Below, in pieces: positions 22,851-26,727 of a stretch of 35,880 nucleotides of DNA (position 1 is the stretch's first letter; every line of letters starts with the position of its first letter). A program made the translations under genes and the position numbers. The notes beneath the pieces are model-generated. The model saw only the letters and a program-made list of their open reading frames with translations, did no database searches and was not told where the DNA came from. Source of the DNA: Lawsonibacter sp. (GTDB taxonomy: Bacteria > Bacillota > Clostridia > Oscillospirales > Oscillospiraceae); contig JAAWCR010000058.1 in NCBI GenBank assembly GCA_022793355.1, positions 1-35,880 on the forward strand, read 5' to 3'.

Positions 22851-22916
22851 ATTAAGAATACCGAACACAACAACGGCAATCAGGTTAAGTAGTGACAGGA
22901 CTTCCAACACTGACAT
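22839..22916 (-). CDS. 25-aa hydrophobic peptide MSVLEVLSLLNLIAVVVFGILNIKK, putative holin-like / type I toxin
   Basis: ATG at 22916 preceded by aaggaggtgacaag; single transmembrane segment with charged tail. Confidence 0.7.
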   Translation of the reverse strand: MSVLEVLSLLNLIAVVVFGILNIKK

Positions 22917-22922
22917 CTTGTC

Positions 22923-22938
22923 ACCTCCTTACGGAGGT
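22923..22938 (-). promoter_or_regulatory. SD-sequestering hairpin of the small toxin-like ORF
   Basis: Minus-strand ACCTCC-GTAA-GGAGGT: 6-bp stem, GNRA-type loop, containing the SD. Confidence 0.65.
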
Positions 22939-22963
22939 CGAGCCGTTCCCTTCCCGCCCGAAT

Positions 22964-22993
22964 ACTATACCACAGAACCGCTCATGGGGACAA
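22964..22993 (-). promoter_or_regulatory. Possible promoter for the small toxin-like ORF
   Basis: Minus-strand TTGTCC-18 nt-TATAGT. Confidence 0.45.
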
Positions 22994-23008
22994 GCCCTCT
23001 TTTTCCGG

Positions 23009-23046
23009 AAAATTCCCCTTGACAGGGGAATTTTTTGCGCTATAAT
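23009..23046 (+). promoter_or_regulatory. Promoter with -35 hexamer in a perfect inverted repeat, upstream of radical SAM gene
   Basis: AAAATTCCCC-TTGACA-GGGGAATTTT (23009-23034), TATAAT at 23041-23046. Confidence 0.7.
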
Positions 23047-23095
23047 GATAGTACACAAGTTCTATCGAACGCATTTTCGCAGAGGAGGCCCACCT

Positions 23096-24361
23096 ATGGA
23101 GCTGCTGGAAAAGCTGAACATTCTGGCCGACGCCGCCAAGTACGACGCAGCCTGCACCTCCAGCGGACTGGACCGCTCCGGTCGGCCGGGGACCATTGGC
23201 AGCACAATGATGGCGGGCTGCTGCCACTCCTTTTCGGCGGATGGCCGGTGCGTAACGCTGCTGAAGGTCTTGCAAACCAACTTCTGCGTCTACGACTGCC
23301 AATACTGCGTCAACCGCCGGTCTAACGACGTCCCCCGGGCAGCCTTCACTCCCCAGGAGCTGTGCGAGCTGACCATCGGATTCTACCGGCGCAACTACAT
23401 TGAAGGGCTGTTTCTCTCCTCGGCGGTCATCCAAAACCCGGATTACACCACCGAGCTGATGATCCGCACCCTGGCCATTTTGCGGGAAAAACACCGATTC
23501 GGCGGCTATATCCACGCCAAGGCCATTCCCGGGGCGGATCCGCTGCTCACCCGGCGGCTAGGCCTGCTGGCCGACCGGCTATCGGTGAACATTGAGCTGC
23601 CCAGCTCCCCCAGCCTGGCCCTGCTGGCCCCGGACAAGAGGAAGGAGGCCATCCTCGCCCCCATGGGTCAGATTCGGGATGGAATCGACCAGTCCAAGCG
23701 TGAACTGGCCGTCTACCGCCACGCCCCCCGGTTTGCTCCAGCGGGGCAGTCCACCCAGATGATTGTGGGGGCCACCCCGGAGAGCGACCGGCACATCCTC
23801 ACCCTCACCCAGGCCCTCTACGACCGCTATCAATTGAAAAGGGTGTTTTACTCCGCCTATATGCCCGTCTCCTCCAGCCCGCTCCTGCCGGTGGCGGAGG
23901 GCTACCAGCCCCCTCTGCTCCGGGAGCACCGGCTGTACCAGGCCGACTGGCTGCTGCGCTACTACCACTTCCGGGCGGAGGAAATTCTGGATGAGACTCA
24001 GCCCGACCTGGACCCTCGGATGGACCCCAAGTGCTGCTGGGCCCTGCGCCATCTCGACTTTTTCCCGGTGGAGGTCAACCGGGCCGACTACGAGGCCCTG
24101 CTCCGGGTCCCTGGTCTGGGGGTGCGGTCGGCCAAACGGATTTTAAGGGCAAGGCGGGTGGGGCCGCTCAATTTCGAGGGTCTGAAACGCCTGGGCGTGG
24201 TACTCAAGCGGGCCCAGTATTTCCTCACCTGCTCGGGGCGTATGGCGGCAGGCCTCCACGTCAGCGAGGATGGCCTGCTCCGCCATCTGGTCTCTCTGGA
24301 GGCCCCCGCACTGGCACAGCCTATGCCTGAACAGCTGTCGCTGTTCGGGGACGCCGTATAG
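23096..24361 (+). CDS. Putative DNA modification/repair radical SAM protein (TIGR03916-like)
   Basis: CVYDCQYC (CX3CX2C) radical SAM motif; C-terminal helix-hairpin-helix-like RVPGLGVRSAKRILRARR; ATG at 23096 after gaggaggcc. Confidence 0.85.
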   Translation: MELLEKLNILADAAKYDAACTSSGLDRSGRPGTIGSTMMAGCCHSFSADGRCVTLLKVLQTNFCVYDCQYCVNRRSNDVPRAAFTPQELCELTIGFYRRNYIEGLFLSSAVIQNPDYTTELMIRTLAILREKHRFGGYIHAKAIPGADPLLTRRLGLLADRLSVNIELPSSPSLALLAPDKRKEAILAPMGQIRDGIDQSKRELAVYRHAPRFAPAGQSTQMIVGATPESDRHILTLTQALYDRYQLKRVFYSAYMPVSSSPLLPVAEGYQPPLLREHRLYQADWLLRYYHFRAEEILDETQPDLDPRMDPKCCWALRHLDFFPVEVNRADYEALLRVPGLGVRSAKRILRARRVGPLNFEGLKRLGVVLKRAQYFLTCSGRMAAGLHVSEDGLLRHLVSLEAPALAQPMPEQLSLFGDAV

Positions 24362-24402
24362 GGGCCCTCCCGCCGCGACGAATTCTGAAAGGAGGCCTTT
24401 CC

Positions 24403-25188
24403 GTGTCCTGGACCCAGATTTCCTGTCAATACGACGGCACTTACCCCGGCTTTCTCTCCTGCGTATTCGACTGCTACGTCCATCAGGAGGAGCCAGTGGA
24501 GTTCCGCGTGCCTTCGGACATGTGCTGTTCCCTCTACCCTCTGCGCACCGTGGAGACGGACGAGGCCCACGCCCTCCGGGTATACAAATCCTTCTCCAAA
24601 TTCGGGGCGGAGGGGCAGCGGCTGGCGGTGCGGTGCTTCCTCACCTGTCTGCCAGACAAGGAGCTGTGGCTGTGGCGTTTTCTCCGCCTGGGCTATGCCC
24701 AGGGGGCCAGGGTGGGCCAAAATCTTACCGACCCCACAGTGGACAAGGTGCGCAAGGCGGTGTGGCACCTGGAGCATGAAGCTCACCAGTATAAGGGGTT
24801 CACCCGTTTTTCTGAGCTGGAGGGGATTCTGGTCGGGGAAATCGAGCCCAAAAACCAGGTTCTCCCCCTGCTGCGGCCCCACTTCTGTGGGCGCTATCCC
24901 CAGGAATGTTTTGTCCTCCACGACCGCACCCACCATGCGGCCCTGTTCCACCGGCCGGGCCCCCGCGGCTGGAACATCCTGCCCGTGGAACACTTCTCCC
25001 CCGGCCCCGCCGGCGAGACGGAGCTGACCTATCGAAAGCTGTGGCGGACCTTTTACGACACCATCGCCATTGAGGGCCGCTACAACCCCAAGTGCCGCAT
25101 GACCAACATGCCCAAGCGCTACTGGGCCATGATGACCGAGTTTCAGAAGGATTGGGACACCGCCCTGCCGGAGGTAAAGGGCGTGTGA
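24403..25188 (+). CDS. TIGR03915/DUF4130-like putative DNA metabolism protein, partner of radical SAM protein
   Basis: Adjacent same-strand gene; YDGTYPGFLSCVFDCY N-terminus and C-terminal MTNMPKRYWAMMTEFQ. Confidence 0.78.
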   Translation: MSWTQISCQYDGTYPGFLSCVFDCYVHQEEPVEFRVPSDMCCSLYPLRTVETDEAHALRVYKSFSKFGAEGQRLAVRCFLTCLPDKELWLWRFLRLGYAQGARVGQNLTDPTVDKVRKAVWHLEHEAHQYKGFTRFSELEGILVGEIEPKNQVLPLLRPHFCGRYPQECFVLHDRTHHAALFHRPGPRGWNILPVEHFSPGPAGETELTYRKLWRTFYDTIAIEGRYNPKCRMTNMPKRYWAMMTEFQKDWDTALPEVKGV

Positions 25189-25199
25189 AAACGGATTTC

Positions 25200-25228
25200 T
25201 TGCAATTCCGGCCGTTTTATGTTATCAT
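25200..25228 (+). promoter_or_regulatory. Promoter for leader peptide/MFS transcript
   Basis: TTGCAA-17 nt-TATCAT. Confidence 0.5.
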
Positions 25229-25276
25229 GTTGCCGCGCCGTTGATGCTGCGGCGAGTTTGACAGGAGGAATACGTT

Positions 25277-25315
25277 ATGAAGCTCTGCATTGTCTCCGCT
25301 CTGCGCAAGGTCTGA
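25277..25315 (+). CDS. 12-aa leader peptide MKLCIVSALRKV
   Basis: ATG at 25277 preceded by aggagg; stop TGA at 25313-25315; 98 nt upstream of the MFS start. Confidence 0.7.
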   Translation: MKLCIVSALRKV

Positions 25316-25413
25316 CCGGGCGAACTGCGCGGGGCGTTAAGCTGTAAGTGATTTCGCCCATTCGGGCTTTGCGCTTGTTTGAACCATCAAAACAAGTAAG
25401 GAGCAAAGTCCAT
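25301..25413 (+). promoter_or_regulatory. Attenuator-like leader with competing stems and SD sequestration
   Basis: 25301-25307/25326-25332 (ctgcgca/tgcgcgg); gccc-attc-gggc 25356-25367; gggctttgc 25364-25372 / gcaaagtcc 25403-25411; cttgttt 25374-25380 / aaacaag 25390-25396; SD aaggag at 25398-25403. Confidence 0.65.
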
Positions 25414-26727
25414 ATGAACTATAACACGGAACCAAGCCGCACTTTGCGGCCCTTTCTCATCCTCTGGTCCACCCAGTCGCTGTCCACCCTGGGCAGCTCC
25501 ATGACCGCCTTCGCCCTGGTGCTGTGGTCCTACCAGGCCCAGGGCTCCGCCCTTACCACCGCCCTGCTGTCGGTGTGCTCCTACGCCCCCTACGTCGCCA
25601 TGAGCATCTTTGCTGGAGCCCTCAGCGACCGGTGGGACAAAAAACGCACCATGCTGGCGTGCGACACCCTGGCCGCCCTGTGCACCCTCACCGTACTGGG
25701 ACTGGCGGAGGCCAACGCGCTGGAGCTTGGGCACCTGTATCTGGTCAACGCCCTGTCCGGGCTGATGAACACGGTGCAGCAGCCCGCCGCCGACGTGGCA
25801 GTCACCCTGCTCACCCCCCGAGAGCACTTCCAGCGGGCAGGCGGTCTGCGGTCTCTGTCCTACTCCCTGAACAACATGTTGGCCCCTGCCCTGGCCTCTG
25901 GACTGTACGCCTTGGCCGGCCTGCGGGCCGTTATTTTGTTCGATTTGGTCACCTTTTCCGTGGCTTTTCTCTCCCTGCTGTTCCTCATTGACCTCCCCCG
26001 CCCCTTCGAGCAGGAGGAACCTGAGCCGGTGTTCCAATCCGCCAGGGCAGGGCTGACCTATCTGCAGCGGGAACGGGGTGTGCTGGATATCATTCTTTTT
26101 CTGGCGGCCATCAACCTCACCGCCTCCATGTTCAATGCCGCTCTGCCCGCCCTGGCCCTCACCCGGCCCTGGGGCGGAGAGTACGCCCTGGGCCTGATCC
26201 AGAGCATCAGCGGCGGGGCCATGCTGGCGGGCGGCCTGGCCTCTTCCCTCCTGCCCGCGCCCAAAAGCCGGGTGAGGGTCATCTGCAACTGCCTGCTGCT
26301 GGCTATGTCCACCGAAAACTTCTGCCTGGCCTTCGGAAAAAACCTGTCTGTCTGGTGTGTGGGCGCGGCCCTGGGCTGGGTGGGCATCCCGGTGATGAAC
26401 GCCAACTTGGACGCCCTGGTGCGCGGCCGGGTACCGGTGGAACTCCAGGGCCGGGTATACGCCGCCCGGAACACCCTGCAATTTTTTACCATCCCCTTGG
26501 GGTATCTGCTGGGCGGGCTTCTGGTGGACCGGGCCTTCGAGCCTTTGGCCGCCCGGATGGGACCGGGTTCGCTGTGGGCCCTCCTGTTCGGATTGGGAAA
26601 AGGCTCCGGCGCCGCCGGGTTGTTCCTGGTTCTGGGCTTTCTGGGGGTGCTGACCTGCCTGATTTTCCGCCGGGACCGGCACATCTGGTTGTTAGAATCG
26701 GCATCCATGCCTGAAAACCCCAAATAA
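25414..26727 (+). CDS. MFS efflux transporter (MefA-like family)
   Basis: 437 aa polytopic; LSDRWDKKRTMLACD motif and general macrolide-efflux-like MFS pattern. Confidence 0.85.
   Translation: MNYNTEPSRTLRPFLILWSTQSLSTLGSSMTAFALVLWSYQAQGSALTTALLSVCSYAPYVAMSIFAGALSDRWDKKRTMLACDTLAALCTLTVLGLAEANALELGHLYLVNALSGLMNTVQQPAADVAVTLLTPREHFQRAGGLRSLSYSLNNMLAPALASGLYALAGLRAVILFDLVTFSVAFLSLLFLIDLPRPFEQEEPEPVFQSARAGLTYLQRERGVLDIILFLAAINLTASMFNAALPALALTRPWGGEYALGLIQSISGGAMLAGGLASSLLPAPKSRVRVICNCLLLAMSTENFCLAFGKNLSVWCVGAALGWVGIPVMNANLDALVRGRVPVELQGRVYAARNTLQFFTIPLGYLLGGLLVDRAFEPLAARMGPGSLWALLFGLGKGSGAAGLFLVLGFLGVLTCLIFRRDRHIWLLESASMPENPK

Follow-up and report, generated by a model that had tools for sequence, protein, structure and literature searches.

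The MFS transporter gene in the window (the whole stretch analysed, 35,880 nucleotides, a 35.9 kb contig within a draft genome of 1.9 Mb) is preceded by a short leader ORF and three competing RNA helices. We interpret this arrangement as a cis-acting translational attenuator of the pump, opened by early arrest of a ribosome on the leader, and assign this reading a probability of about 0.7. The inducer would most likely be a peptidyl-transferase-centre antibiotic, a phenicol or a drug of a related class. Translational attenuation keyed to a ribosome on a short ORF had been proposed in a first-pass annotation made from the DNA alone. It is strongly supported by codon conservation in the leader, by the three mutually exclusive helices and by an in silico switch that spans a single codon.

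Leader ORF and pump gene

As first noted, a 12-codon ORF with its own Shine-Dalgarno (SD) sequence is present between a promoter and the MFS gene (Table 1). On its upstream side the leader borders a TIGR03915-family gene (24403-25188); on the other side lie the MFS gene and, downstream, nrdR. A consensus scan identified this one promoter, compared with 0.2 expected in shuffles, and promoter scores of at least 10 occur in 37% of ortholog upstream regions vs 1.5% of shuffles. A DNA-repair pair (TIGR03916/TIGR03915, window 22892-25188) lies directly upstream of the MFS gene, and in locus L157 a TIGR03916 gene (1-1297) also adjoins a CatA-like gene with this leader. The predicted transporter scores 155.8 bits against TIGR00900, 92.9 bits against Mef(A) and 100.8 bits against Mef(C), all under the respective cutoffs of 319.6, 675 and 870. 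Its closest orthologs (86-88% identity) come from MAGs that carry the labels Bacillota and Lawsonibacter sp.

Table 1. Features of the leader region and the MFS gene in the window.
Feature	Position	Strand	Evidence
Promoter TTGCAA - 17 nt - TATCAT, extended -10 (TG ahead of -10)	25200-25228	+	Consensus scan
Leader SD, AGGAGG	25263-25268	+	Sequence; SD-like sites also before most ortholog leaders
Leader ORF, 12 codons, MKLCIVSALRKV; ATG 25277, stop TGA 25313-25315	25277-25315	+	Codon tables, tree-based synonymous test
Strand 1a (GCTCTGCGCA), within leader ORF, pairs with strand 2	25298-25307	+	Conserved helix, 98% of cells paired
Strand 1b proximal (GCAAGGTCTG), leader ORF end, pairs with strand 3 as anti-sequestor	25305-25314	+	Covariation
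Strand 1b distal (GGGCGAA), lengthens anti-sequestor helix	25318-25324	+	Complementary to 25353-25359
Strand 2 (TGCGCGGGGC), partner of 1a	25326-25335	+	Folding, covariation
Strand 3 distal (TTCGCCC), partner of 25318-25324	25353-25359	+	Sequence, centroid fold
Strand 3 (CGGGCTTTGC), pairs with 1b in the open form or with 4 in the closed form	25363-25372	+	Mask folding, covariation
Inner stem-loop of sequestering hairpin, CTTGTTT (25374-25380) / AAACAAG (25390-25396)	25374-25396	+	Folding
MFS SD, AAGGAG, internal loop of sequestering hairpin	25398-25403	+	Sequence, folding
Strand 4 (GCAAAGTCC), closes SD hairpin on 25364-25372 (GGGCTTTGC)	25403-25411	+	98.8% of cells paired, 52 loci
437-aa MFS transporter, distantly related to Mef/TIGR00900	25414-26727	+	Pfam PF07690, 7.5e-33

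Eighty orthologous MFS loci were taken from named genomes, and others from the genus and family of the window. A short ORF with a shared C-terminal motif occurs at about -90 to -230 in nearly all orthologs. A covariance model built from 52 ortholog loci (its E-values are rough, as calibration was short) finds the element ahead of 79 of the 80 orthologous MFS genes, in many families of Clostridia; because part of its training came from these loci, the count indicates presence and is not an independent test. Independent genome searches identified the element in 24 of 391 genomes of the class, mostly before MFS orthologs. The model gave no match before MFS paralogs of 20-31% identity, and comparison with Rfam covariance models gave none, whether at the gathering threshold or with E relaxed to 1. 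In one locus (L162, about 1497-1740) an intact leader is joined to the final 46 codons of the MFS gene, apparently by internal deletion of the pump gene.

The leader family has the consensus x-L-[CAM]-I-[AV]-x-A-P-[CR]-[KRE]-[VA]-stop. Positions are numbered from the Pro of A-P (0), which places the Leu at P-6 and the Ile at P-4. Leu is found at P-6 in 77 of the 80 leaders and is encoded by all six Leu codons; at P-5, 76/80 have Cys, Ala or Met (Ala in 25/80), and at P-4, 66/80 have Ile. When codon changes are inferred along the MFS protein tree, 29 of 32 at P-6 are synonymous, where 39% would be expected (P about 2e-9), as are 11 of 26 at P-5 (P 0.006); at P-4 there are 16 changes, 4 of them synonymous, and the test has no power. 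The first-pass annotation had named a lack of codon-level conservation in homologous loci as one ground for giving up its proposal; conservation was found. N-terminal extensions of up to five codons (e.g., MQNITLPLCIASAPCKV) leave the spacing between the Leu and the switch unchanged.

The downstream part of the leader follows other rules. GCT and CC are invariant or nearly so among the 80 aligned leaders, and the +1 codon alternates between TGC and CGC (Cys/Arg) in step with the base that it faces in strand 2 (UA in 42, CG in 6). With strand 2 compensating for these Cys/Arg changes, RNA pairing is what shapes the 3′ half of the leader. The unpaired 5′ half is under selection at the peptide level, and the one 12-codon ORF is split into a peptide-selected and an RNA-selected half. 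The window leader has Leu at the site occupied by Pro in 79/80, giving A-L-R (25300-25302) in place of A-P-R or A-P-C, a single C to T change by which pairing is kept as G-U. A search of the open-access literature with pieces of the leader peptide returned no paper on this leader, which is weak evidence of absence. To our knowledge, the motif differs from the arrest peptides of mef, erm and cat leaders.

Helices and ribosome position

The MFS SD was seen, as earlier described, in the internal loop of a long stem, formed by strands 3 and 4 around an inner stem. The previously noted pairing of CTGCGCA with TGCGCGG is real and reaches 10 bp (helix 1a:2). Two other proposed pairings exist but were extended or reassigned: GCGCAA with TTGCGC is only the inner end of the longer anti-sequestor 1b:3, and GGGC with GCCC (25356-25359) is better read as part of the distal helix of that anti-sequestor. 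The distal stem varies in sequence among orthologs, with pairing maintained. Helices 1b:3 and 3:4 share strand 3, and 1a:2 and 1b:3 overlap in bases, making each pair mutually exclusive.

Folding energy alone gives a weak signal (z -1.3 for the whole leader, -2.5 for its 3′ part). The main evidence is instead ortholog conservation, both the occurrence of the element in 79 of 80 loci and the covariation. Covariation was evaluated on a fixed-segment alignment (A1), in which strand 2 was picked by best complementarity and five loci failing this were omitted. In view of that choice and those omissions, the test was redone on a plain MAFFT alignment (A2), and the two gave the same result for the helices. 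On A2, 98.1% of cells are paired in 1a:2, 92.6% in 1b:3 and 98.8% in 3:4, with 16, 52 and 9 cells, respectively, changed on both sides. For each helix, the number of such cells and the covariation score exceed those of all 500 shuffles and all slid controls. Double changes affect 9 of 15 pairs in 1b:3, a value reached in 0/500 shuffles, and 3 of 9 in 1a:2; the count of such pairs alone is not above shuffles for 1a:2 and 3:4. As the shuffles keep relatedness, the strongest arguments come from the slid controls and from the fact that three helices which exclude one another are all conserved. Three loci upstream of MFS genes (L038, L125 and L126) have insertions of >100 nt, either separating strand 2 from strand 3 or within the flank of strand 2, with the arms kept; these resemble inserted repeats.

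The effect of a ribosome on the leader was predicted for 73 loci by folding with the covered bases masked, for a ribosome extending 16 nt downstream from the first base of the P-site codon. Helix probabilities were used as the measure, since mean SD unpairedness says little about an SD located in an internal loop. The mean probability of 1b:3 is 0.38 with the Leu codon in the P site, 0.71 with P-5 and 0.86 with Ile (P-4), where 88% of loci have 1b:3 as the dominant helix. At the next codon it is 0.04, whereas 3:4 reaches 0.93 and is dominant in 97%. The open form needs the 3′ edge of the ribosome at CCA+2 to +4, and the closed form prevails from +6 on. The codon that gives the open form depends on the assumed footprint: P-3 with 13 nt, Ile with 14-16 nt and P-5 with 17-18 nt. 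Thus, the conserved peptide ends where arrest would open the hairpin. When no ribosome is placed on the RNA, the window folds at equilibrium into the open form (1b:3 0.96), and the average over all loci is about half-half. Given a ribosome-free fold that is open or balanced, we infer that the off state relies on ribosomes that reach the end of the leader or on 1a:2 forming during transcription, that is, on ribosome traffic or folding kinetics.

Proposed mechanism and alternatives

In uninduced cells, the ribosome would run to the leader stop codon and cover 1b, and on its departure from the leader end the 1a:2 hairpin would re-form. With 1b covered or 1a:2 formed, strand 3 would pair with strand 4 and bury the pump SD. 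The inducer would cause early arrest of a ribosome that has just made the conserved Leu-[Cys/Ala/Met]-Ile, with 1a covered and 1b left free. Free 1b could then take strand 3, releasing strand 4 and allowing the pump to be translated; the pump may in turn export the inducer. Of this scheme, the leader, the helices, the conserved peptide and the dependence of the switch on ribosome position are computational results, from which we infer the arrest, where it occurs, the inducer and its export. A U-run after the SD hairpin is missing in 69 of 73 loci (mean of 1.8 T in 10 nt; 4/73 have 5). Thus, control is exerted on translation rather than on termination, and transcription attenuation was rejected.

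Peptide-specific arrest might be dispensable if the leader sensed ribosome occupancy only, the SD hairpin being opened when ribosomes are lost from the leader end through poor initiation or translation stress. The near balance of open and closed forms over all ribosome-free loci, and the dominance of the open form in the window, would suit such a sensor, as would the precedent of the E. coli toiL uORF, which answers at least five drug classes via arrest at different codons (PMC12121999). We nevertheless regard it as unlikely, given that Leu at P-6 varies synonymously, P-5 and P-4 are restricted, and the distance to the switch is fixed while N-terminal extensions vary. This constraint at a fixed distance from the switch argues that a particular nascent peptide matters. 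The same codon-level selection in the unpaired 5′ half makes it quite improbable that the RNA acts alone, as a riboswitch or protein-bound leader with an incidental ORF, and no Rfam match was found even at lax thresholds. In favour of an RNA-only element are the strong covariation, the way in which the 3′ half of the ORF tracks pairing despite peptide change (Cys to Arg, T-A to C-G), and the cfr and CD3324 relatives described below, which have an overlapping ORF in another frame.

Conserved Leu and Ile residues, correctly spaced from the switch, could also indicate amino-acid attenuation, with slowing at Leu, Ile or Cys codons when charged tRNA is scarce. This is very improbable: P-5 varies (Cys, Ala or Met) and the single critical Leu codon takes six synonymous forms, common ones included, and on these two points the explanation was rejected. 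In addition, the regulated genes encode an MFS pump, CatA-like proteins and Cfr, and are not amino-acid genes. The modest folding z-scores of the window might suggest chance pairing around a spurious short ORF, an explanation that is refuted by the presence of the element in 79 of the 80 orthologs. If attenuation by peptide-specific arrest is correct, a widespread family of MFS pumps of gut Clostridia gains a testable role in intrinsic, inducible resistance, and L-[CAM]-I-[AV] would be added as a new candidate arrest peptide.

Related elements and known systems

The element also precedes other resistance genes. Three loci with CatA-like genes have a 12-codon leader of the same frame and length (MKRGLDAAPCEA, MKRGLDNAPCEA, MKFCIAVFPCKA). 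Because the same leader precedes these genes, the element could be used as a sequence tag for genes that answer ribosome-targeting drugs. The best solved relatives of the CatA-like proteins are type III CAT (E 8e-45), and their score of 210 bits is under the curated CatA cutoff of 270. CatA relatives of 30-52% identity mostly lack the element, with only 3 of 30 CatA loci matching. In L155 (about 1490-2970, locus reverse strand), the CatA locus whose flank was examined, the leader is followed by a CatA-like gene and then by a gene for a Vat-like acetyltransferase, apparently in one operon.

More distant relatives were identified by weaker model matches and an exact pattern search, for which a reversed control gave a count of zero. 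Two occur before cfr (L159 and L198, about 1500-2640), with 57% identity to plasmid Cfr and a Cfr family score of 677.8 bits (cutoff 468). In L198 the element is directly behind an Lsa-type ABC-F gene, and in neither locus did we identify a convincing in-frame uORF with an SD. Also present are elements before CD3324-family HTH genes (L158, L160, L163, L197 and L201, about 1450-1950 in element orientation), with the pattern CTCCATGCAAAG...GGCGAT...GCATGGAG...CTTTGC...GGAG and GGCGAT conserved between the arms. Three of these (L160, L197 and L201) have an 18-codon leader ORF in which LHA[KR] replaces APCK (frame shifted); the overlapping ORF of the cfr and CD3324 relatives is in another frame. 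Mask folding gave the same order of open and closed helices in the cfr and CD3324 loci and in 2/3 CatA loci; the open form was not seen in the fold of the third (L156). Plasmids gave no DNA match for the cfr leader. From the annotation, an element before cfr(C) was rejected, as in each of two records 53 bp separate this gene from aph(3′)-IIIa, with little or no space for a leader, and likewise before the one plasmid cfr examined, with 32 bp after a DUF536 gene. Two pattern matches were found in viral contigs, but in neither case did the other parts of the element stand ahead of a resistance gene.

Drugs of the peptidyl-transferase centre are what CatA-like, Vat-like, Cfr and Lsa products have in common. 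Thus, we propose an antibiotic of this type as inducer; the related elements before CatA-like and cfr genes point to phenicols or similar drugs rather than macrolides. Chloramphenicol and linezolid prefer penultimate Ala, then Ser/Thr (PMC8987054). Ala at P-5 (25/80) fits this preference with Ile in the P site; Cys and Met at P-5 have no obvious fit. Tentatively, and with less than even confidence, we suggest that one modular RNA switch (CTCCATGCAAAG...GCATGGAG...CTTTGC...GGAGCAAAG) may have spread through Clostridia and neighbouring Firmicutes. It would control responses to peptidyl-transferase-centre drugs by an unrecognised efflux family, CatA-like and Vat-like enzymes, Cfr and a CD3324-family DNA-binding protein, with the RNA logic kept and the leader frame changed between branches.

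The system resembles the translational attenuators of ermC, ermA and ermB (ermB leader in PMC8274638) in having an SD-led short uORF, a sequestered resistance-gene SD, exclusive helices and a switch set by ribosome position. In ermC the anti-sequestor strand is the 3′ arm of the leader hairpin, whereas here the last part of the leader ORF serves as this strand and is located in the leader-end hairpin loop. Unlike in erm systems, the peptide is L-[CAM]-I-[AV]-x-A-P and the regulated gene is a pump. As with cat, cml and fexA leaders, phenicol resistance may be leader-controlled, given that three genomes have a leader of this type ahead of a CatA-like gene. The cat-86 and cmlA leader peptides do not resemble this one, and we know of no three-helix layout common to a pump and a CatA-like gene.

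The mef(A)-msr(D) leader responds to macrolides by transcription attenuation (PMC10314930 for MsrD). It shares with the present system a leader ORF ahead of a Mef-related MFS gene. The first-pass annotation had likened the element to erm/mef-type leaders; a family link with mef leaders is not supported: the window element has no terminator, its MFS protein scores far under the Mef cutoffs and its peptide differs. The uORFs of cplR, lmo0919 and vmlR likewise attenuate intrinsic resistance genes of Firmicutes, Clostridia among them; they have 3-4 codons (MRI, MIN, MK[L/Q], MAGN), and in cplR the SD is sequestered and a terminator is used as well (PMC10201436), whereas here the peptide has 12 codons and control is of translation only. 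In kind, therefore, the system is already known, as erm/cat-like translational attenuation; its peptide, helix layout and set of genes are new to us.
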